From Acidobacteriota bacterium (lineage in GTDB: Bacteria; Acidobacteriota; Vicinamibacteria; Vicinamibacterales; SCN-69-37): a stretch of 64,000 nucleotides of DNA. The notes beneath the pieces are model-generated. The model was not told where the DNA came from, did not search any database, and worked only from the letters and a program-made list of their open reading frames with translations. Where the stretch lies: positions 208,609-272,608 of the forward strand of contig JADYYY010000002.1 in NCBI GenBank assembly GCA_020853395.1, given 5' to 3'. Both the position numbers and the translations under genes were made by a program. This document shows positions 9,470 to 41,033 of the stretch, one piece after another (the stretch's first letter is position 1; each line of letters starts with the position of its first letter).

Positions 9470-10975
9470 TCAGCGCCCGCTCCGGCTCTCCACCGCCAGC
9501 CGCGCTCGTCTGTACACTTTGACATATTCCCGGGCGGAGGTCGCCCACGAGTGGTCTGCTCCCATGCCGTTCCGAACGAGCGGCAGCCAGGCCTCTTTGT
9601 CGCGAAAGAGGCGCACGGCCTGCCGGACCGCTCGCACGAGCGCCTCCGGCGTCGCGTCCTTGAACTTGAAGCCATTCGCACCGATGGCGCGCGCGGTGTA
9701 GGGCTGGATCGTATCGTCCAGGCCGCCGACGGCGCGGACGATCGGAACCGCGCCGTAGCGGAGGCTGTACATCTGGTTGAGCCCGCATGGCTCGAACGTC
9801 GAGGGCATCAGGAACATGTCGGCGCCGGCCTCGACGAGGTGCGCGAGCGGCTCGCTGAACCCGATGTGCACGCCGACGCGCGCGGGTTGGCGCGCGGCCC
9901 AGTCGCGGAGGAACTGCTCGTACCGAGCCTCCCCGGTACCGAGGAACACCCAGGTCGCGTCGCACTCGGCCAGCCGTTCGCTCGCCTGCTCGATGAGCTC
10001 CATTCCCTTCTGCTCGACGAGGCGCGACACCATGCCGATGAGCGGCCGCGCCATCCGGTCGTCCCCCTGGGCGAACCCGAAACGCTCGAGCAGTGCGCGT
10101 TTACACGCGGCCTTGCCCTCCAGGTGGTCGGCATCGAACGGCGCCGGAAGGTACGGATCGGTCTGCGGGTTCCAGGCGGCCGTGTCGATCCCGTTCAGGA
10201 TCCCGACGTAGCGGTCGCGGCGGGCCTGCAGCGCGCCTTCGAGACCGGCGCCGAACTCCGGCTCGAGCGTCTCGCGCGCGTACGACGGGCTCACCGTCGT
10301 CACGTAGTCGCTGTACATGATGCCGGCCTTCAGGTAGCTGAGCTGGCTGTAGAACTCGCCGGTATCGATCGTGAACACCGACCATGGCAGTTCCAGCCTC
10401 GGCACGACATCGCGGGGAAACAGCCCCTGGTACGCCAAGTTGTGGATCGTGAACACGATGCCGGCGCGGCGTAGCCGCGGGAACCGTTCCGGCAGCACAC
10501 GGAGGAGCGCGGGCGCGAGGCCGCCCTGCCAATCGTGCGCATGGACGACGTCCACCGGCGTGCCCATCTCGTACTCCGCGAAGTCGAGCGCCGCGGCGCA
10601 CAGCAGCGCGAAGCGTTCAGCGTTGTCCGGGTAGTCGCGGCCGCCCTGGGTGTAGAACCCTTCGCGATCGAAATAGCGCGGCGCATCGACCATGACGATG
10701 CGCCGGTGGCGGTCCGGCTCGGCGACGAGGAACGTGACGTCTTCGGAGACGCTGCCGATCCTGACGTGCCGATGACGTTCGGCGGCGCCGGGCAAGGACA
10801 CACCGCGATAGCGTGGCAGGACGATGGTGACGTCGTGGCCGAGGTCGCCGAGCGCGGCCGGCAGCGCACCGGTGACGTCGGCGAGCCCGCCCGTCTTGGC
10901 GTAGGGCGACACCTCCGACGCCACCATGACGATGCCCAAGCGCGGGGCACGACCTGCGAGACGACGATCAGCCAA
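9470..10975 (-). CDS. glgA: Glycogen synthase (GT5, ADP-glucose type)
   Basis: Elongates alpha-1,4-glucan from ADP-glucose. The product of about 500 residues starts near SEVSPYAKTGGLADVTGALP, where KTGGL binds the sugar nucleotide, and has the C-terminal GT-B half with SRLVEQKG, PSTFEPCGLNQMYSLRYG and the E-x7-E-like catalytic region. The start is TTG at 10975, or an in-frame TTG at 10939 that would fit the family N terminus better; neither has a clear Shine-Dalgarno. It lies 29 bases upstream of trxA on the same strand. No other glycogen genes are in the window. Confidence 0.94.
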   Translation of the reverse strand: MADRRLAGRAPRLGIVMVASEVSPYAKTGGLADVTGALPAALGDLGHDVTIVLPRYRGVSLPGAAERHRHVRIGSVSEDVTFLVAEPDRHRRIVMVDAPRYFDREGFYTQGGRDYPDNAERFALLCAAALDFAEYEMGTPVDVVHAHDWQGGLAPALLRVLPERFPRLRRAGIVFTIHNLAYQGLFPRDVVPRLELPWSVFTIDTGEFYSQLSYLKAGIMYSDYVTTVSPSYARETLEPEFGAGLEGALQARRDRYVGILNGIDTAAWNPQTDPYLPAPFDADHLEGKAACKRALLERFGFAQGDDRMARPLIGMVSRLVEQKGMELIEQASERLAECDATWVFLGTGEARYEQFLRDWAARQPARVGVHIGFSEPLAHLVEAGADMFLMPSTFEPCGLNQMYSLRYGAVPIVRAVGGLDDTIQPYTARAIGANGFKFKDATPEALVRAVRQAVRLFRDKEAWLPLVRNGMGADHSWATSAREYVKVYRRARLAVESRSGR

Positions 10976-32693: not shown

Positions 32694-32920
32694 CACACTC
32701 ACTCCGGCGGCTATCGTCTCACGAGCATCAGCCAGACGATGCCGTGCGGAAGCACTTCTGCCGACGGTGCTGGGCGAAACAGCGTCCTCGAGGCGATCAG
32801 GCATGCTGCGCGCCGAAGCGAGCGTTACGTTTGAGCAGCAGTAATCGGCATTGCGGCTGGCGGATCAGTGGGCGCACCGCTTACGGCACGCTGCTCTCAG
32901 GGTTGGTTGGTGCAGTATGG

Positions 32921-32931
32921 TGGCGTCCCCA
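32921..32931. repeat. Left attachment-site repeat of the integrative element
   Basis: TGGCGTCCCCA here is identical to 40959-40969, which is the 3' acceptor strand, discriminator and CCA of tRNA-Glu. An 11-bp direct repeat of the tRNA 3' end about 8 kb away marks the displaced half of a tRNA integration site. Confidence 0.7.
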
Positions 32932-33013
32932 ATTTGCGTGAGTTGGAACCAGCTCCGCTGGTGGTTGAGGGCGGTTGACGGCCTGAGACGCGCGGCGTGA
33001 CGGCTTCGGTGGC

Positions 33014-33256
33014 TCAGGCAGAGAGCTGCCGGACGGCTGGCCGATCCGCTGCCGTCGGCTGGCGAAGGGCGCTCGCGGGAAGCGTGGCCACGGCCACGGT
33101 GTTGCCCGCCATGTCGAAGAACTCCACCGAGTAGCCCTCCTCGCTGACGCCCGGCACGGTGTGGCGCTCCACAACCGTGCCGATGTCGCCGGCGCGCACG
33201 CCGTGCTCGGGGACGTCCAGGGTCAGAACTACGTCGCCGTACATGTCGAAGGGCAT
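33014..33256 (-). CDS. DUF4926 domain protein
   Basis: An 80-residue small protein with the DUF4926 pattern: DVVLTLDVPEHGVRAGDIGTVVE, then YSVEFFDMAGNTVAVATL, an SH3-like beta fold. Such proteins are usually encoded beside DUF6883 genes, as here (3-base gap), and have the look of a toxin-antitoxin or immunity partner, though that is not established. Third gene of a three-gene minus-strand unit in the element. Confidence 0.8.
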   Translation of the reverse strand: MPFDMYGDVVLTLDVPEHGVRAGDIGTVVERHTVPGVSEEGYSVEFFDMAGNTVAVATLPASALRQPTAADRPAVRQLSA

Positions 33257-33259
33257 CGG

Positions 33260-33592
33260 CTACCTCGGGTACATGGTAATGAATCGGGGCACGTCGGCTC
33301 CAGTGTCGATCTGCCAGACCGAGCAGAAGAGCACCGCCCTGCCTCTGGGCGTCGTGATCGGCCCCTCAATCTCGTAGACGACACCGTAGGCGTTCGTCGA
33401 AGTGCCGGTCACGTCAAGGGACAAGTGCTGCGTTCGCAGGTCGGCTTCGAGCGCCTGCGGATTCTCGGATCGATATCCGAAGCTCAGGAGGAGCCTGGCC
33501 TTCGCGGCACCTCGCCTGTGCGACAGGTTGAGAAGGTACCCGGTGAGCTTGTCCGCTGCGATGACCGCTCTCTCAGCATTCGGTACCTTCAC
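33260..33592 (-). CDS. DUF6883 domain protein
   Basis: A 110-residue protein with the DUF6883 layout: KVPNAERAVIAADKLTGYLLNLSHRRGAAKARLLLSFGY, then a C-terminal strand region VLFCSVWQIDTGADVPRFITMYPR. I place the start at GTG 33592 with GAGG about 7 bases upstream, 7 bases after the ParD-like stop; the longer frame would overlap the antitoxin gene. The family occurs mostly as short cargo genes beside DUF4926. Function unknown; it occupies the position where a ParE toxin would be expected. Confidence 0.8.
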   Translation of the reverse strand: MKVPNAERAVIAADKLTGYLLNLSHRRGAAKARLLLSFGYRSENPQALEADLRTQHLSLDVTGTSTNAYGVVYEIEGPITTPRGRAVLFCSVWQIDTGADVPRFITMYPR

Positions 33593-33599
33593 TGCGACC

Positions 33600-33848
33600 T
33601 CACAGGCCGGCGAACAAGGCGTCGATCTCGTCCTCGGTCTCGAGTTCAATCACGCGCCCGGCAGCGACATCCTCGTAGCCGCGGTCCAGAGCATCCTTGA
33701 GCCGCTCACACTTAACAGCCACGACCTCGTCTCGCACCTGCATGAGGCGCAGGGCATCGGCGACGACCTCCACCTCGGTGCTGTAGTGGCCTTCCTCGGC
33801 CTTGCGGCGAACGAGAGCTTCGAGGCTCTTGGGAATTGCGATGTCCAT
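33600..33848 (-). CDS. ParD-like ribbon-helix-helix antitoxin
   Basis: An 82-residue protein beginning MDIAIPKSLEALVRRKAEEGHYSTEVEVVADALRLM, the beta strand plus helix-helix of ParD/CopG-type antitoxins, with an acidic C-terminal tail (ELETEDEIDALFAGL) that in ParD wraps the toxin. The start is ATG 33848, with GGAGAG 9 bases upstream, in preference to an upstream ATG at 33863. Autoregulation through the N-terminal domain is usual. No ParE-like toxin follows; instead DUF6883 and DUF4926 genes do. Confidence 0.82.
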   Translation of the reverse strand: MDIAIPKSLEALVRRKAEEGHYSTEVEVVADALRLMQVRDEVVAVKCERLKDALDRGYEDVAAGRVIELETEDEIDALFAGL

Positions 33849-33863
33849 TGTGCGGCTCTCCAC

Positions 33864-34275
33864 GCACTACGCCCCAGTCCGAGGCTGTTGCCCCTCAAGG
33901 CGTGAACCTGACCATTATGGACCCGTCTGCCGGGCTTGCAGATGTCGGAGACCACGCCCGGCACGATTCAGTTGTGGAACGGGATCCGAACGAGGCGGGC
34001 TCTGATCTGGACGCACCGGCAGGGCCGGACATGCGGTCGACACTTTCGGTAGGACGGGCGCTTGGTGCCGGCCGATATGCAGTGACGCTTGGCCACCACG
34101 CATCAGTGCTTGACAGCGTCAGCGACCGTCCCGGACACTGTCGGGAGCGCGCTCTGGGGCGCCTCCTGTCCGCGGCAAGCGAGTTTGCTCCCACCCAACG
34201 TGTTTCTTCACAACTCGAACCTTCTTCCGGCCTGAAGGTAAGCGGACGCCAGGCATCTCACGGAAGGAAGGTCTC
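33864..34275. other. Intergenic region in the element
   Basis: About 410 bases between the divergent ParD-like and ankyrin genes. Overlapping open frames show no domain-like composition. It should hold both promoters; no clear boxes were found. A GGAAGG Shine-Dalgarno lies just before the ankyrin gene start. Confidence 0.4.
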
Positions 34276-35829
34276 ATGAGCACTCTCGAAAACCTCAGGA
34301 AGTCTGCGAGGCGATGGCTGAAGGCGTTGCGCGCGGATGATGCCGACGCGCATGCTCGCCTTGAACGTGCACATCCGAATGCCCCTTCCCCTCCTGCTCT
34401 GCGCGAGGTTCAGCACGCGCTCGCACGGGAGCACGGCCACGAAAGCTGGGTCGATCTTCGGCGGGCTCTCGATGACGGCCGGCGCCGCGGGGCCGCCACA
34501 CCCGATGCCGATCAGTACGACGCTGTAGCCAAGGATGTCTTGGCGGTGTACCAGACCGGTGACGGTGCAGCGATTCAGCGCCTACAGGAGCGATTCCGAA
34601 GACCCGTAACCTGGGAAACCTTGCGCGCCGAAGTCGATCATCAACTCGAGCAGTTGCCCGATTCGTTGAGACCCAGCGCCGGACTGTCCCTGGCGGACAT
34701 CAGGCACTTCATGGCCCGGTCCGCCGGATTCCAGAACTGGGCATCGTTCTTGGACGCGTTGAGGCTTGACGGTGAAGAGTCAGAGGCCAACGCACGAGCG
34801 GCTGTCGTCGTGCCGCGACAATCCGATCCGGGACCGTCCGGCATCCTCCAGCCTGTCGAGCTCCGAATTACGCTGCCGATGGAACTTCAAGGTGGCAAGT
34901 ACACGATGACGACCGACGTGTGGAACATGCTTGCGGCAAGCCGCGCGGGTGATCTCGAAAGGGTCAAGTTGCTTGTAGCTGCTACGCCGGGGCTGGTTCG
35001 CTGCGAGCACAACTACATGCCTCCGCTTCACCTGGCGGTTCGCGAAGGTCATAAAGATCTCGTGGGGTTTCTACTGGAAAGAGGTGCGTTCGACCCCGAA
35101 CACGTGACGTATCCGTACAACGAGAAGCTGCTCACAATCGCCGAGGATCGGGACTACGCCGAGATCGCCCGGCTGTTGTGCCAGTATGCAGGCACACCAT
35201 CAACAGCCGACGGTGAGGCCGTTCACGGCGTTGGCACGATTCAGTTCCCAGCCGACGACGACGTGAATCGGCTTGAGAAGCTCGTTGCTGCGAACGCGCT
35301 CAGCGCGGTTGAGAAGCTCCTGGAGCGTCGGCCCGAACTCGTTCACTACGAACTTGCGTGTTGGGCGGAGGGAGTTCTGAGCACGCCGGCGAACCGCGCG
35401 TTTCGACAGATGCTCGAGCTGCTGCTTCGCCTCGGAGCCCGCGTGCCGGATGTCGCCAAGTGGGGCCGGGCATACTACTTCAAGCACTATGACATCGCAG
35501 CGTTTCTCTTGGAGCGAGGCATGAATCCGAACCATATGAACTGGCATCGCACGACGTTGCTGCACGACATGGCTTGGGAAGGAGACGTCCGCAAGGCGGT
35601 GTTGCTGCTGGATAGCGGTGCGAATATCGATGCCGTCGATGACGAGTTCCGATCAACACCGTTGGGCATTGCTGCGCGAGGGGGCCGACTCGAGGTTGTC
35701 AGGCTGCTGCTGGACCGCGGAGCCGATCCCAACACAGCTGGCGCGTCATGGGCGACGCCATTGGCTTGGGCGGTGAAGAAGAAGCACTCCGACATCGCCG
35801 CGGTGCTACGCTCGGCTGGAGCTCGGTGA
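34276..35829 (+). CDS. Ankyrin-repeat protein
   Basis: A 517-residue protein. The N-terminal third (1-190) contains two related helical segments with AxRxLARxHGxxSWxxL (ALREVQHALAREHGHESWVDLRRAL; SLADIRHFMARSAGFQNWASFLDAL). The rest has ankyrin repeats (MPPLHLAVREGHKDLVGFLLERGA; STPLGIAARGGRLEVVRLLLDRGADPN). This N-terminal motif plus ankyrins is common in bacterial cytoplasmic proteins of unknown target. No signal peptide. Codon use is visibly less GC-biased than the surrounding chromosome, consistent with transfer. Start ATG 34276 with GGAAGG upstream. Confidence 0.85.
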   Translation: MSTLENLRKSARRWLKALRADDADAHARLERAHPNAPSPPALREVQHALAREHGHESWVDLRRALDDGRRRGAATPDADQYDAVAKDVLAVYQTGDGAAIQRLQERFRRPVTWETLRAEVDHQLEQLPDSLRPSAGLSLADIRHFMARSAGFQNWASFLDALRLDGEESEANARAAVVVPRQSDPGPSGILQPVELRITLPMELQGGKYTMTTDVWNMLAASRAGDLERVKLLVAATPGLVRCEHNYMPPLHLAVREGHKDLVGFLLERGAFDPEHVTYPYNEKLLTIAEDRDYAEIARLLCQYAGTPSTADGEAVHGVGTIQFPADDDVNRLEKLVAANALSAVEKLLERRPELVHYELACWAEGVLSTPANRAFRQMLELLLRLGARVPDVAKWGRAYYFKHYDIAAFLLERGMNPNHMNWHRTTLLHDMAWEGDVRKAVLLLDSGANIDAVDDEFRSTPLGIAARGGRLEVVRLLLDRGADPNTAGASWATPLAWAVKKKHSDIAAVLRSAGAR

Positions 35830-36279
35830 TGAGGTCAGGTGGGCAGGCTGTGAGTCTGCCCACCTACAGCGGTTGCCGCCCGCGTCTTGTCGGTTCGGCA
35901 CGGGCAATTTGCGGCATGGCCTTGCGCTGAACCGCGGGGAATCGATAAGTGGTCCTCGCCGGCTCGTCGCCGGGCACTTGCCGTGCCCGCGAGTTGGGCG
36001 TATAAGATTCGAAGCAGTCTGCTGGTCGGCTGCGGCCCGTCACGGTGCTGATGGCACGCGGGCCGAACTCATCGCTCGGTCGCCCCAGCGGTCCCGAGCC
36101 CGGGTTCCACAGACCACGCCCTGAACGTCGCGCGGCGCAACGCCCCGAACGCTCAGCGCCTTCTTGAATCGCCCCGCGCCGTCACGGCCCGGACGCCTTC
36201 ACGGACAACTCAGCGTAACGCCTTGCTCGCTTGCCGAGCCGTATCTCGGCGAAGCCGAGCGAAGGCTGGGAGGACAGCC
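35830..36279. other. Intergenic region in the element
   Basis: About 450 bases with no supported gene between the ankyrin gene and the wHTH gene pair. It contains the hairpin at 35837-35865 near its left end and an imperfect inverted repeat of the type CGGCCCG/GCGGGCCG around 36030-36065. Nothing else recognisable. Confidence 0.4.
35837..35865 (+). terminator. Hairpin after the ankyrin gene
   Basis: AGGTGGGCAG (35837-35846) and CTGCCCACCT (35856-35865) form a perfect 10-bp stem with a 9-base loop, eight bases after the stop codon. No T-tract follows, so termination is likely but not certain. Confidence 0.5.
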
Positions 36280-37149
36280 ATGTTCGACGCGCGAGATGAC
36301 GCACGCGACCGTGATGCGCCGGAGGACCGCCGCGAGCGTGTGTACGACGAACGGGACCGCGACGATGACCCGCGCGAGACCCTGATGCGCGACCTCGATC
36401 TGCCGCGCGGCGAGGAGCGCGAGCTGGTCGCGGTCCGTGACCGCGTCTACGAGCTGGGCGGCGAGGACAGCCGCACGCTGGCCACTGTCGGCGCCTTCCG
36501 CGTCGTGCCCGAACACGACCTCGACATCGACCACGAGACGTTCGAACACCTGCACGACGAGGGCCTCGTCGAGCCGGTCGAACTCGGTGACGACGCGCGC
36601 GGCTTGACGCTCACACGGGAGGGCTGCGAAGTGCTCGACTCGCATTCACTCGATCGCGGGGACGAGCCGACACAGGACTTCTACGCGGGCATCAGCCGGG
36701 AACGCGAACTCGACCACGACTCGAACCTCTATGCGACGTACCGCCAGGAGGAAGCCCGGCTCCGCGACGAGCACGGCGGGCTCGATATCCGCCGCGTCGT
36801 CCTCGAGCAGGACCTAAAGCGCGAATACCAGGAGTTCCTGCAGGAACACAACCTCGGCCGCTCCGACGGCGATGGCCGCCCTGATCGCGACGAGCACGAG
36901 ATTCGCGAGTGGGCACGCGACCACGACTTGCCGTACTTCGGCGGGCAGGTCCACTTCCCGGACTACCGCATCGAGTACGAAGTGGACGGGCGCGAGCACC
37001 ACCAGGACGTCGAGCTGTTCACGGAGCATTACCGCGGCGCCCATGCCGCGAGCCACGCGCAGACCGGCTTCCGCATCTATGTTGTCGGTTCGCGCGGTGG
37101 CGGTGGGCGTTCCGGGCCGCATCCGCGTCTGATGGAGGAATTCCTGTGA
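36280..37149 (+). CDS. Winged-helix plus nuclease-fold-like protein, mobilisation type
   Basis: A 289-residue acidic protein. Residues about 60-125 look like a winged helix (LATVGAFRVVPEHDLDIDHETFEHLHDEGLVEPVE followed by LTLTREGCEVLDSH). The C-terminal part has HFPDYRIEYEVDGREHHQDVELFTEHY, the spacing of a PD-(D/E)xK-like core, then GFRIYVVG. This arrangement recalls replication-relaxation (Replic_Relax) proteins of mobile elements. The start at ATG 36280 is supported by GGGAGG upstream. It overlaps the next gene by four bases (GTGA), so the two proteins are made together. The family call is inference from motif layout, not a database hit. Confidence 0.6.
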   Translation: MFDARDDARDRDAPEDRRERVYDERDRDDDPRETLMRDLDLPRGEERELVAVRDRVYELGGEDSRTLATVGAFRVVPEHDLDIDHETFEHLHDEGLVEPVELGDDARGLTLTREGCEVLDSHSLDRGDEPTQDFYAGISRERELDHDSNLYATYRQEEARLRDEHGGLDIRRVVLEQDLKREYQEFLQEHNLGRSDGDGRPDRDEHEIREWARDHDLPYFGGQVHFPDYRIEYEVDGREHHQDVELFTEHYRGAHAASHAQTGFRIYVVGSRGGGGRSGPHPRLMEEFL

Positions 37150-38303
37150 CACACGAATATCCTCGTCACGACATCGACGACAGCGTCACCCGGACACGGG
37201 TGAACGCGCTGGCCGGCCTCGGATTCACCGAGCGACAGCGCGAGTTCCTCGTGACCGTGATGGTCCACTCCGGCTGCTTCCTGGAACGGCAGTACTGCGC
37301 GTTCACGGGCACGGTGCGCGGCCAGAACAGCCGCGAGTTCATGGCGCGCCTCGTGGCCCGCGGTTTCGTCCGTGCCATCGAGCCGGGACCGGTTCGGCGA
37401 GGGCGGCTGTACCACGTCCACCACAAGCCGCTCTACGAAGCGGTCGGCCAGGCCGACAACCGGAATCGACGACTTCGAACCATCGGCCGCATGGTCGAGC
37501 GCGTAATGATCCTCGACGCGATTCTGGGCGACCGGCGCTGCTGGTGGCTGAGCCCCGCCGATGACAAGTGGAAGTTCTTCTGTCTGAGACGCGATAACCA
37601 CCTGCGCCCGGAGGACTACCCGCACATCGCCTTCGGGACGGGCCGGCAGCGGACGATCCGCTGCTTCCCCGACAAGCTGCCTATCGGCGTCGATAAGAAC
37701 GACGGCGACCGTCTGGTCTGCGTGTACCTCGTGAACCGGCGCCTGTCGGTGGACTTCCGTCAGTTCCTGATTCGACACCTCGCCCTGTTGCGTTTCGTGC
37801 GCACGTGGACGATGCGGCTGCTCGTCCCACGCCGCTTCAGGAAGGCCGTCGCCCTCTACAAAGCCGCCCTCCGCGAAGAACTCTGGACGCCGATGAATCC
37901 CAGCGTCAGCAAGATGCTGGAGACCTACTTTCCCGAACGTCAGGCGCGGGGAGAACACCTTAGCGATCCGGACGATCGCTACATCCGGGACGAGTTCCGA
38001 AAGCAGGGGATGATGAAGATCCAGGCGCTCTATCGAGCGTGGAACCGACAGGGCGACGGCGTTCTCTGGCAGGCCCACTCGACCACCCTGCGCGACGATC
38101 ACTCGCACGGCTGTTCGGCAATCGAAGTCGAACTGTTGAACCGCCAATATCTCCAGCTCACCGGCACGATGGACCGTGACGTGTGGGCCAAACGGGGGGC
38201 CAAGCGAAAATCGCGTCAGCTCGGCCCCCCGGTTTCGGCGCCGTCTCCAAGCTCTCTCTCACCTCTGGTTGGCGATGAACACGAACCGCAGGCAACTGCT
38301 TGA
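37146..38303 (+). CDS. Second wHTH mobilisation-like protein
   Basis: A 385-residue protein starting at GTG 37146 inside the stop of the previous gene. Residues about 18-85 look like a winged helix (FTERQREFLVTVMVHSGCFLERQYCAFTG... FMARLVARGFVRAI). The central part has CFPDKLPIGVDKNDGDRLVCVYLVN and RQFLIRHLALLRFVRTWTMRLL, similar in layout to its partner (PD, then hydrophobic strand), suggesting a degenerate nuclease-like fold. The C terminus is basic. It probably acts with the preceding protein on element DNA. No known relaxase motif (HUH, tyrosine) is seen. Confidence 0.6.
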   Translation: MTHEYPRHDIDDSVTRTRVNALAGLGFTERQREFLVTVMVHSGCFLERQYCAFTGTVRGQNSREFMARLVARGFVRAIEPGPVRRGRLYHVHHKPLYEAVGQADNRNRRLRTIGRMVERVMILDAILGDRRCWWLSPADDKWKFFCLRRDNHLRPEDYPHIAFGTGRQRTIRCFPDKLPIGVDKNDGDRLVCVYLVNRRLSVDFRQFLIRHLALLRFVRTWTMRLLVPRRFRKAVALYKAALREELWTPMNPSVSKMLETYFPERQARGEHLSDPDDRYIRDEFRKQGMMKIQALYRAWNRQGDGVLWQAHSTTLRDDHSHGCSAIEVELLNRQYLQLTGTMDRDVWAKRGAKRKSRQLGPPVSAPSPSSLSPLVGDEHEPQATA

Positions 38304-38385
38304 CACGGCGTCCGTTGCCGCGAGTCAGGTAGCGAGGCGGCGCTCTGTGCCGGCTCGCCCGAGAACGTCGGTGCCGATGTCACAG

Positions 38386-38473
38386 CACCAACGATGGCGT
38401 GAACGACCCCGCCGCCGTGCCCGGCACCTGACCCCAGCGCACCCTGACGGGGTCGTTCACGCCATCGTTGGTG
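38386..38473. repeat. Perfect 25-bp inverted repeat
   Basis: Arms 38386-38410 and 38449-38473 are exact reverse complements, starting CACCAACGATGG and ending CCATCGTTGGTG, around a 38-base loop. A further GACCCC in the loop (38430-38435) could pair alternatively with GGGGTC of the right arm. Too long and unbroken for an ordinary terminator. Confidence 0.85.
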
Positions 38474-38688
38474 GTGTCCCGTGTCGCTGTCCGCATGTCC
38501 AGTTCGTGCAGGAGAACCGCGCCGCCCGCGTGTCCCCTCTCTTGCCCAGATGCGAGCGTAGAAGTGAGTATGCGCCTAGCGCCGCGATCGGTTCGCGCAC
38601 CGGCCTGGTTCTTCAGCAGAACACGGGCTCGTCTTGTGCTCAGATCGAGCCGCGCCACCATCGCGCAGATGATGCTGGTGCCGTGCTC

Positions 38689-38758
38689 GGCGTCGTCAAT
38701 GCTCTCCGCTTCGCTTCGACCCGACCTGTGGGCCGGGCCTTCGGGCATTGACGACGCC
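38689..38758. repeat. Perfect 14-bp inverted repeat
   Basis: GGCGTCGTCAATGC (38689-38702) and GCATTGACGACGCC (38745-38758) are exact reverse complements around a 42-base loop. The loop size is similar to that of the 25-bp repeat 280 bases to its left. Confidence 0.8.
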
Positions 38759-39241
38759 TGTGCGCGGCACGGATCGGCAATGGCGCGATGGTGACCACTG
38801 CGACGGTCGCTCACACGAGGTTGACGAAGACCGCACGCAGGCGTATGGTGGGCTCATCACTCCAGTGCAGCCAGGCACTCCTCCGGTTCGCCACAACGGC
38901 ATCCGGAGCGCACATTCGGCCGACGCTCCCAGGGCACGGTTTCGAGCGCACCATCACGACATCGCAGTCCGTAGTCACGCTCTTGGTGGCGCCGCGTTCC
39001 CAGGACCGCGCGTCGTCAGGAAGCCGCGTTCATCAGCGGCATGATCGAGCCCTGGTTCGACTGAACGCACGATAGACGGTCACGTCATCGACGCCACCGT
39101 CGCCGCTCGGAGCGCAGCTCCCGCGGATCGATGCCGGCACAGCCCGCATCCGCGCTCACCACAACGGCGCGTCGACCGCCACATCGACGCATCGGGCGCG
39201 CCACTCACCCAATCACCAATCGCGTGCGAGTGGGGGACGCC

Positions 39242-40999
39242 ATGGAAGTGCCCGAAGGTGCGGAACTCGTTCCGGAACCGATCTCGATTGCGCACTGCCG
39301 CGAACTGCTCGGCGACGAAGCCGACGCACTGACCGACGACGAGGTGCGCGACGTCGCGCGCCACGCGGAAGCGATGGCGCGCGTGCTGATTGCCCTGGCC
39401 CTGCAGGACGCCGGATTCACTGACCGCGATGCCGCGCAGACGTACCTTGCCGCCGGCGGGCGATGGACTACGCTGACCGAGATGATCGGCGCGGTGATCT
39501 ACGTTCGCGTCAGCACGAAGGAGCAGACCGAGAACCTCAGTCTGCCGACCCAGCTCAAGGCGTGTGAGGAATACTGCCGGCGGAACGGCCGCGAGATCCG
39601 CGAGCGCTTCCACGAAGAGGGCGAGAGCGCCAAGACCACGGACCGCAGCCAGCTCCAGGCGCTGCTGAAGTACTGCCGAACGCACAAGGGCCGGGTCCAC
39701 TTCGTGGTCGTCTACAACCTCACGCGCTTCGCGCGCGAGAAGTACGACCACTTCGCGCTCCGAGCGCACCTGCAGTCCCTGGGGATTTCTCTACGGTCAG
39801 CCACTGAGCCGATCGACGACACCTCCACCGGCAAGCTGATGGAAGGTGTGCTCGCCGCGTTCGCGCAGTTCGACAACGACGTGCGCTCAGAACGCACGCT
39901 GGCCGGCATGAAGGCTGCGCTGTCGCTTGGGCGCTGGACCTTCCAGGCGCCACTCGGCTACCTGAACGCGCCGAAGTGGTCCAAGAGCAGTCTCGTGCAT
40001 GATCCCGTGCGCGGTCCGCTGGTGCAGCAGGCGTTCCGCGATCTGGCTTCGGGACAGTTCACCGCACAGGAAGTGATTCGCCGCGCCACGGACGCGGGTC
40101 TACGAACGCGGCGCGACCGTCCGCTCTCACCGCAGACCTTCGGCAACATGCTGCGGAACCGCATCTACGTCGGCCACATCGAGAGTCCTGAGATCGCCGT
40201 GAGCGCACGGGGCGACTTCGAGCCCCTCATCGACGAGGCGATCTTCTACCGGGCGCAGGCCGTCCTCGATGGTCGCGTGCCGGTGGCTGCGGCACGCCGG
40301 CGAAATCATCCTGACTTTCCGTTGCGCGGCTTCGTGCGCTGCGAAACCTGCGGGCGCCCGCTCACCGGCAGCTGGTCGAAGGGGCGGAACGGCCGCTACG
40401 CCTACTACCACTGCCCGCGCCGATGCCGTGCGGTCAACGTCAGCAAGGCCGCACTCGAAGGCGCCTTCGTGGACGAACTTGCACTGCTACAGCCGACGCC
40501 TGGCTACATGCGGCTCGTCAAGGATCGCGTGCTTTGCGTGTGGGAGCAGGAGTGCGCCGCCGCCCGAGACCGAACCGCTGAACAGGATCGGCGGCTCAAG
40601 GCCGTCCGGTTGAAGCTCGATCGACTCGACGAGGCGATCCTGTACTCGGAATCGATCGACCTCGACACCTACGGCCGCCAGCGCGACAAGCTCCGCGAGG
40701 AGTTGACGTTGTCGAAGATCGATTACCACACCGAGGCCGTCGAGGAACTCGACGTAGAAGGCATCCTGGCCTTCGCAGAACGCATCCTGCCGCGTGCCGC
40801 GGACCTCTGGGTCCAGGCGTCGCTCGACTACCGCCAGCGATTGCAGCAGCTGTTCTTTCCTGAGGGGATTGCGTACGACGGAAGTCGATTCAATCGAACC
40901 GGCGTAACCGCGCCGCTTTTCAGATACTTGGAGCCCGACGAACAGGCCGAATCAAGTTTGGCGTCCCCATCGGGAATCGAACCCGAGTCTCGGCCTTGA
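39242..40999 (+). CDS. Large serine recombinase (integrase of the element)
   Basis: Site-specific recombinase of 585 residues. Resolvase domain: VIYVRVSTKEQ with nucleophile Ser91, then the arginine region YNLTRFAREKYDHF. A recombinase domain (GYLNAPKW...LRNRIYVGHIE), a zinc ribbon (CETCGRP...CPRRC) and a coiled coil (about 470-530) follow. The start is ATG 39242 (GGGG upstream), which adds an 80-residue helical module (CRELLGDEADALTDDEVRDVARHAEAMARVL) before the catalytic domain; a start at ATG 39482 would give the usual N terminus. The reading frame ends inside tRNA-Glu, giving the tail SGIEPESRP, so the last nine codons come from the tRNA gene. Confidence 0.9.
   Translation: MEVPEGAELVPEPISIAHCRELLGDEADALTDDEVRDVARHAEAMARVLIALALQDAGFTDRDAAQTYLAAGGRWTTLTEMIGAVIYVRVSTKEQTENLSLPTQLKACEEYCRRNGREIRERFHEEGESAKTTDRSQLQALLKYCRTHKGRVHFVVVYNLTRFAREKYDHFALRAHLQSLGISLRSATEPIDDTSTGKLMEGVLAAFAQFDNDVRSERTLAGMKAALSLGRWTFQAPLGYLNAPKWSKSSLVHDPVRGPLVQQAFRDLASGQFTAQEVIRRATDAGLRTRRDRPLSPQTFGNMLRNRIYVGHIESPEIAVSARGDFEPLIDEAIFYRAQAVLDGRVPVAAARRRNHPDFPLRGFVRCETCGRPLTGSWSKGRNGRYAYYHCPRRCRAVNVSKAALEGAFVDELALLQPTPGYMRLVKDRVLCVWEQECAAARDRTAEQDRRLKAVRLKLDRLDEAILYSESIDLDTYGRQRDKLREELTLSKIDYHTEAVEELDVEGILAFAERILPRAADLWVQASLDYRQRLQQLFFPEGIAYDGSRFNRTGVTAPLFRYLEPDEQAESSLASPSGIEPESRP
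40959..40969. repeat. Right attachment-site repeat, within tRNA-Glu
   Basis: TGGCGTCCCCA, read on the minus strand, is the acceptor 3' strand TGGGGAC, discriminator G and CCA of tRNA-Glu. It repeats 32921-32931 exactly; the bases on either side differ from the left copy. Confidence 0.7.
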
Positions 41000-41033
41000 A
41001 AGGGCCGCGTCCTGACCGCTGGACGATGGGGAC
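40959..41033 (-). tRNA. tRNA-Glu (anticodon UUC)
   Basis: On the minus strand, the acceptor arms GTCCCCA and TGGGGAC pair perfectly, the anticodon loop is CTTTCAA (TTC, glutamate), the T-arm is GGTTCGATTCC, and discriminator G is followed by an encoded CCA. It is intact despite integration at its 3' end. The integrase stop codon lies within it. Confidence 0.96.

Follow-up and report, generated by a model that had tools for sequence, protein, structure and literature searches.

A large serine recombinase gene probably split by integration of its own element into a tRNA gene

The window analysed here is a stretch of 64,000 nucleotides from an Acidobacteriota genome assembled in 21 contigs, and is part of a contig of 489 kb. 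It carries an integrative element of 8,038 bp at the 3' end of a tRNA-Glu(UUC) gene, with a gene for a large serine recombinase (LSR) next to the tRNA. Comparison with related elements indicates that the attachment site of the circular element (attP) lies inside the 3' end of this LSR gene, and that integration would therefore swap a conserved C-terminal tail for one encoded by the antisense strand of the tRNA. To this reading, in which integration splits the LSR gene and exchanges its C-terminal tail, we assign a probability of roughly 0.78. The features that carry it are as follows.

32920 to 33000, plus strand: P' arm of the attachment site and detached LSR 3' end, encoding the tail VASPICVSWNQLRWWLRAVDGLRRAA followed by a stop; TTGGAACC is the proposed zinc-ribbon binding motif
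32921 to 32931, no strand: core of the left attachment site (attL), TGGCGTCCCCA, the displaced copy of the tRNA-Glu 3' end and left boundary
39482 to 40999, plus strand: LSR, 505 residues as integrated; from 40958 its codons are antisense tRNA (LASPSGIEPESRP, then a stop)
40959 to 40969, no strand: core of the right attachment site (attR), TGGCGTCCCCA, common to the tRNA 3' end
40959 to 41033, minus strand: tRNA-Glu(UUC), the integration target, kept intact (ARAGORN, TTC anticodon; Rfam)

Boundaries of the Element

An element of about 8 kb at the tRNA-Glu 3' end had been proposed in an earlier note on the sequence, and this proposal holds: the tRNA is called by both ARAGORN and Rfam, a P' arm found throughout the element family occupies the left end, and the tRNA-end repeat stands exactly at both borders, its two copies (32921–32931 and 40959–40969) enclosing the 8,038 bp. 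Only one tRNA-Glu(UUC) was found in the genome, an exact 27-base tRNA-Glu pattern matching once.

By itself, the 11-bp repeat is weak to modest evidence for the left boundary. Exact copies occur at 32921 and 40959, but four matches with at most one mismatch were found against 1.7 expected, and at least four arose in 12 of 100 shuffles. The left repeat could thus be a chance match with the true left end elsewhere, given its shortness and the near matches expected by chance. This is nevertheless extremely unlikely, because the DNA just inside the repeat is a conserved end of the element family, present in dozens of relatives, which secures the boundary independently of the repeat. A profile of 16 such ends, with the window's own tail among the 16 rows, matches window positions 32920–32997 (G000:C2:241528–241605) at a genome-wide E-value of 2.8e-12. 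The left repeat is accordingly the displaced tRNA end, as first supposed, and the DNA on its inner side is the family P' arm with its tail.

The ordinary chromosomal flanks described earlier are borne out on the left, where reading frames and Pfam support TonB-dependent receptors, and in part on the right, where the PstS-like gene is present as a frame and identified by reading only. In six further genomes of the family the PstS-like loci lack an adjoining tRNA, a close homologue of the left TonB gene is absent from the other 13 genomes, and neither comparison yielded a syntenic empty locus. Contigs L110 and L111 of G003 match over tRNA-Glu and the right flank (97.9% across 336 bp), and the match breaks off precisely where the tRNA 3' end is reached. 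These contigs were not counted as an empty site, because L111 may hold another element.

A Recombinase Frame That Enters the tRNA

The LSR consists of an N-terminal resolvase domain (PF00239, E = 2.1e-34), a Recombinase domain (PF07508), and a zinc ribbon (PF13408), confirming the serine recombinase first seen abutting the tRNA. The Y-x-R-x-S motif is invariant in 12 aligned members, and we take its serine to be the catalytic one. AlphaFold models, used in support of the domain layout only, have long helices at residues 340–387 and 394–418, corresponding to a coiled-coil insertion. In the integrated state, the frame passes through the core and terminates within the tRNA, which it reads on the antisense strand; the resolvase domain is retained in the integrated open reading frame (ORF) and only the tail is lost. 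The original reading as a tRNA-site island was sound in outline but missed the position of the attachment site within the recombinase gene and the stranding of that gene's conserved 3' end at the far border.

This arrangement recurs among relatives, whose recombinases likewise lie antisense to and abut the 3' ends of Lys, Ala, Glu, Gln, Met, and Arg tRNAs. A full tRNA is found within 130 nt of 41 of 69 distinct LSR 3' ends, and in every intact LSR beside a tRNA (33/33) the frame runs on through the tRNA 3' end to a stop inside the tRNA or beyond it. The tRNAs at these ends are Lys-CTT, Ala-GGC, Glu-TTC/CTC, Gln-CTG, Ala-CGC, and Met-CAT, and LSRs on viral contigs target Arg-TCT, Ala-GGC, Arg-CCG, and His-GTG (His-GTG in L225, whose identity is just 25%). 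Annotated C-termini of such LSRs of the type ‘GIEP..’ or ‘GFEP..’ should be treated with caution: they are tRNA antisense, and the genuine 3' ends of the genes are to be sought at the opposite border of the element.

The Detached Tail

The tail at the left border comprises 26 codons and a stop, 8 kb from the gene body, and is in frame with the LSR once the element ends are joined. Such joining would restore an LSR of 518 residues, the frame crossing the core into 32920–33000 and terminating in SWNQLRWWLRAVDGLRRAA. The circular junction is expected to read ..GAATCAAGTT-TGGCGTCCCCA-ATTTGCGTGAGTTGGAACC.. within one open LSR frame.

Relatives have a common left end made up of the core, about ten bases, and a stretch near AGTTGGAACC. 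Read in the LSR frame that would follow circularisation, these ends give the consensus LVDxxSASWNxxxxWLRxxxxLRxAA and then a stop. W9 and N10 are constant in 47 of 47 distinct tail copies, 31 of which have their stop at codon 27. Because the copies were chosen by the core and a TGGAACC pattern, conservation of W-N is itself selected, and the region tested lies beyond it. Over tail codons 11–26, entropy at positions 1, 2, and 3 is 1.15, 0.97, and 1.64 bits (47 copies; permutation p = 2e-4), and stops within codons 11–25 occur in 3 of 47 copies in frame versus 17 and 6 of 47 in the other frames, a pattern of protein-coding constraint. Since 22 of these copies had been retrieved through the tail peptide, the entropy test was repeated on the remaining 25; the values were 1.27, 1.14, and 1.65 bits (p = 8e-4), with the codon-27 stop in 12 of 25 and tail stops in 3 of 25 in frame versus 13 and 3 in the other frames.

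These figures bear on a plainer explanation, namely an ordinary tRNA-site island in which the P' arm serves as a DNA site only and the in-frame tail peptide is a functionless by-product. The recombinase in any case requires a conserved DNA motif within P', and the tail profile matches more class genomes (74/193) than the LSR does (38/193), so that many left ends belong to cassettes lacking a recombinase. Against this explanation, which we consider improbable, stand the third-position freedom, the recurrent stop at codon 27, and the match of the frame in a relative whose phase differs. In that relative, the viral contig L211 inserted in tRNA-Arg(TCT), the core has a different phase with respect to the LSR, and the left end, in the LSR frame, reads WSAKPPEVRTGRQDIIGFIQAADELRLAMAA (..DELRLAMAA*). 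At the level of sequence, no other single check supports the split gene as strongly as this phase match.

Relatives with and without the Tail

Using the natural LSR C-terminus and tail of L081 as a query against the 193 genomes gave 66 matches, most of which stop at the core, and seven (the query's own locus included) that reach at least residue 170, i.e., the tail end; those of the seven characterised in detail are remnants or junctions within arrays. An intact LSR with a contiguous tail (..MVAPTVATLNPREFVSGLLRLRDRIAA) and no tRNA is present on the phage contig L196, which also encodes a tape measure protein and an endolysin; its identity to the window LSR is 43% by BLAST and 44% by HMMER. 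The LSR of viral contig L213 (49%) is likewise intact, with a contiguous tail (..NGLVDLLTPSWNPTLAWLRHLYDTLPRAA) and no tRNA, and both contigs look unintegrated; the viral nature of L213 rests on its source collection, because three neighbouring frames have no PHROG match. L212, 65% identical to L213 over residues 2–494, lies in tRNA-Ala and is tail-less, ending in ..ELVDLTGIEPVTS. The left core of L212 and L214 was not found in the first 7–8 kb of their records. A search of 2.9 million viral contigs with the P' DNA pattern matched nine, none of which encodes the tail, and these were taken as chance; plasmid and phage records held distant LSR homologues only.

Several observations weigh against the proposed explanation as a whole. 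Neither a circular junction nor an empty site was seen for the window element. No full tRNA lies within 130 nt of 28 of the 69 LSR ends, which are mostly tRNA fragments, tail junctions, and contig ends, and L075, L216, L217, and L221 match neither the tRNA nor the tail pattern clearly. Most Acidobacteriota copies with both LSR and tail are either remnants or junctions within arrays (L081, L054, L146), L091 is frameshifted, and the only intact tailed LSRs among closer relatives are L196 and L213, at 43–49% identity. L196 shows no terminal overlap and the L213 record no exact terminal repeat longer than 10 nt, the completeness of both being putative. The tail helix in the AlphaFold models is short, of low confidence, and not shown docked. 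Lastly, the printed sequences were inspected by eye for an inverted match to the P' motif on the LSR half of attP, and none was seen.

Some candidates were set aside. L143 (minus strand, a 519-residue frame) resembled an intact tailed LSR but is, by eye, a tyrosine recombinase running into the tail of a neighbouring element. L270 and L269/L083 are LSRs of another clade that run into the same tail; they were treated as array junctions, although a second LSR clade may share the tail. The tRNA fragments after the LSRs of L012, L015, and L030 were considered as attP; in G146 and L061 a complete tRNA-Lys follows at some distance, and later insertions by other elements are therefore likelier. The tRNA-Lys fragments in L012, L015, and L030 all break at one anticodon-loop position (..TTAAGAG), which suggests that a different integrase family, one with the anticodon loop as its site, displaces these elements. 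In L275, the LSR ends in antisense tRNA-Gln.

What the Tail May Do

In the mechanism we propose, the tailed LSR would, in the circle, recombine attP with the tRNA 3' end. In the tRNA, its zinc ribbon would read the T-arm (ATCGAACC or TTCGAACC); in P' it would read TTGGAACC, which lies 5 bp further out. Integration would remove the tail and thereby change the state of the enzyme. Among the outcomes of this change, the likeliest would be an integrated LSR poor at reversal unless helped by a directionality factor or a tailed copy, the latter supplied by an incoming element or a tandem hybrid attP. Serine integrases usually depend on a separate factor for directional control, and C-terminus exchange offers a simple, testable hypothesis for such control. 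We put forward only tentatively, at rather less than even odds, that tail removal alters the enzyme state, so that the attachment site would act as an integration-state switch and the integrated enzyme would be poor at reversal.

The tail is predicted to be an amphipathic helix, usually ending in alanine. Among tails of up to 40 residues, 51 of 63 end in A and 30 of 63 in AA, whereas among 106 background ORFs 10 end in A and none in AA (four tails exceeding 40 residues were dropped), and the distant tailed forms L196, L213, L218, L220, and L224 also end in A or AA. Such endings favour a degradation tag, in which the free enzyme, ending in -AA as in ssrA, would be short-lived, and integration would leave a stable, excision-ready enzyme. 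A degron needs only the last residues, whereas conservation in the tail extends to W9 and N10 (47/47) and to the pattern L12/W15/L16/L19/L22; conservation of the W-N codons could, however, stem from the DNA motif. The degradation tag has, in our estimate, perhaps a one-in-three standing. The tail may thus act as an integration switch or as an -AA degron; an integration-competent tail and a degron both fit, and would predict opposite consequences of integration.

Target Choice and the T-Arm

Counted from the first base of the core, GAACC starts at 20 nt in 28 of 28 distinct tRNA halves (attB) and at 25 nt in 64 of 66 P' arms, the other two having an earlier GAACC that was reported first. The P' arms were chosen with TGGAACC at offset 23; before this filter, 58 of 58 matches to a looser pattern had TGGAACC there. 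When attB and P' profiles were matched, the best shift was 5 bp, with an identity of 0.75 over TTGGAACC, followed by 4 bp at 0.56. In LI integrase, the zinc-ribbon motif is shifted by 5 bp between attP and attB (PMC3783163). Because the shift seen here equals that published rule, the zinc ribbon of the recombinase probably recognises the universal T-arm; the 5-bp shift was found for one half-site only, P' versus the tRNA side. The match between the zinc-ribbon motif and the invariant T-arm is offered as an explanation for the use of tRNA genes.

Reading of the T-arm by the zinc ribbon would enable close relatives to change tRNA species. The Glu-targeting LSR of the window pairs with a Lys-targeting LSR (88% identical) inside the Lys clade, with a support of 100/100, and placing the ten target labels on a tree of 43 LSRs takes 15 changes (where a full tRNA was lacking, in eight cases, the label was taken from the core: five Lys, one Glu, and two Ala; seven remote rows were omitted). 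Targets thus change over short distances. As a separate observation, the bases before the core (window 40930–40958) resemble those of Glu-targeting copies (L011, L083, and L101 were compared), though the closest LSR targets Lys, a hint of exchange between elements at the target switch.

Comparison with Known Systems

Archaeal SSV1-type ‘suicidal’ tyrosine integrases carry the attachment site inside the integrase gene, which is split on integration so that the catalytic domain is separated from the rest; remnants and intact copies coexist, and a review proposes that a complete copy replaces the directionality factor (PMC8371274). Recombinases that disrupt their own gene are stated in this review to be exclusively archaeal (PMC8371274). 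We liken the window system to these integrases, albeit with an unrelated enzyme, because attP lies in its own gene and the tail is lost on integration; related intact copies and remnants coexist here as well. In contrast to SSV1-type integrases, the window enzyme is a serine recombinase of bacteria and phages and not a tyrosine recombinase with a Phage_integr_3 domain, and its catalytic part stays whole, only the last ~26 residues being exchanged.

The enzyme shares its resolvase, recombinase, zinc-ribbon, and coiled-coil layout, as well as the 5-bp motif shift between attP and attB, with the A118/LI integrase, but differs in its tRNA 3' end targets, in having attP in the coding sequence, and in a C-terminus changed by integration (PMC3783163). 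In the integration-dependent immunity of mycobacteriophage BPs, attP also lies in a coding frame and the C-terminus is replaced, removing a tail; -AA ends resembling an ssrA tag are a further likeness, no more than suggestive of a proteolytic tag here, and attP is in the repressor gene in BPs and in the recombinase gene here (PMC4557955). A tRNA target is by itself not new for a serine recombinase, as the phiRSM filamentous phages of Ralstonia also use one to integrate, reversed and with a core of 13 nt, at the 3' end of a tRNA; their enzyme is small and resolvase-like, and their attP lies between two ORFs (PMC3816273). Full-text literature searches, covering mostly papers outside subscription and read as titles, abstract openings, or passages, turned up no account of a serine recombinase arranged in this way.

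If read correctly, self-splitting would have been reached independently with another recombinase chemistry, in Acidobacteriota, in contigs labelled Nitrospira, Omnitrophica, and Chloroflexi, and in phages. A wider proposition is that this clade of bacterial and phage LSRs senses its integration state by swapping the C-terminus for one read antisense from the target tRNA gene, this exchange and not a separate directionality protein alone setting direction and stability, and that a T-arm-reading zinc ribbon makes it retargetable, in principle, to almost any tRNA gene; this may be so, though we rate it somewhat below an even chance. Such recombinases might be useful integration tools, since every cell has the target.

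Accessory Genes and Cargo

Between the tail and the recombinase, the element contains the following features.

33014 to 33256, minus strand: DUF4926 protein, cargo (PF16277, E = 1.3e-17)
33260 to 33619, minus strand: DUF6883 protein, cargo (PF21814, E = 1.1e-27)
33600 to 33863, minus strand: weakly ParD-like antitoxin, cargo (TIGR02606, E = 5.6e-9, below the cut-off)
34276 to 35829, plus strand: ankyrin-repeat protein, cargo (Pfam scan)
36280 to 37149, plus strand: P289, conserved, of no named family, first of a pair that travels with the LSR
37146 to 38303, plus strand: P385, conserved, of no named family, second of the pair
38382 to 38477, no strand: conserved inverted repeat with 39-nt arms downstream of P385, a candidate origin or origin of transfer (oriT), in 6 of 7 elements
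39242 to 39481, plus strand: small protein just upstream of the LSR, a candidate accessory or directionality factor; here in the LSR frame with no stop between

The P289 and P385 frames overlap by four bases, and their order with the LSR is kept in the window, L045, L047, L048, L049, L051, L055, L053, L065, and a G189 element; in L042, 10 kb separate the pair from the LSR. The palindrome has its core TGGCGTGAACGACCCC just after P385 and is also found in L045 (6886–6961), L049 (5400–5485), and L055 (6916–7001). The small protein precedes the LSR in most relatives examined. No profile gives a name to P289, P385, or the small protein.

The pair (36280–38303) had been described as mobilisation-like, a label that finds no backing: both are conserved proteins without a meaningful match in Pfam, NCBIfam, PHROG, PADLOC, or PDB. 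Together with the palindrome, the pair could form a replication or mobilisation module and make this an integrative mobilisable element, in line with the mobilisation role first suggested. The conserved order beside the LSR and a palindrome in six of the seven elements examined speak for such a module, but the profile scans matched no relaxase or replication protein, and a P385 homologue is absent from 72,556 plasmids; on balance, we consider it less likely than not. The DUF4926, DUF6883, and ParD-like genes are consecutive (33014–33863) and resemble a cargo of toxin–antitoxin type. PADLOC and PHROG scans gave no specific match for the cargo.

Distribution, Arrays and Mini-Elements

LSR relatives occur in 38 of 193 genomes of the class (E ≤ 1e-60) and in 27 of 396 sampled genomes of the phylum (E ≤ 1e-70). 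Named contigs among those bearing them include Acidobacteria, Nitrospira, Omnitrophica, Chloroflexi, and Nomurabacteria, and some of these bin labels are probably wrong. The window genome has two further LSR relatives, both degraded, beside tRNA-Lys(CTT) and tRNA-Ala(GGC).

Tandem arrays with several cores and P' ends at one tRNA are seen in L089/L090 (G097), L081/L082 (G186), and L084–L086 (G045). Some array units have no recognised LSR, i.e., they are passive cassettes, and end in GAGCGAAGG-type arms with a hairpin-like sequence. At the small end of the range, L040 (window genome, contig 11) contains, at about 10510–10606 of the reverse complement, a mini-element of ~95 bp between two copies of the tRNA-Lys end, with a near copy 3 kb away.

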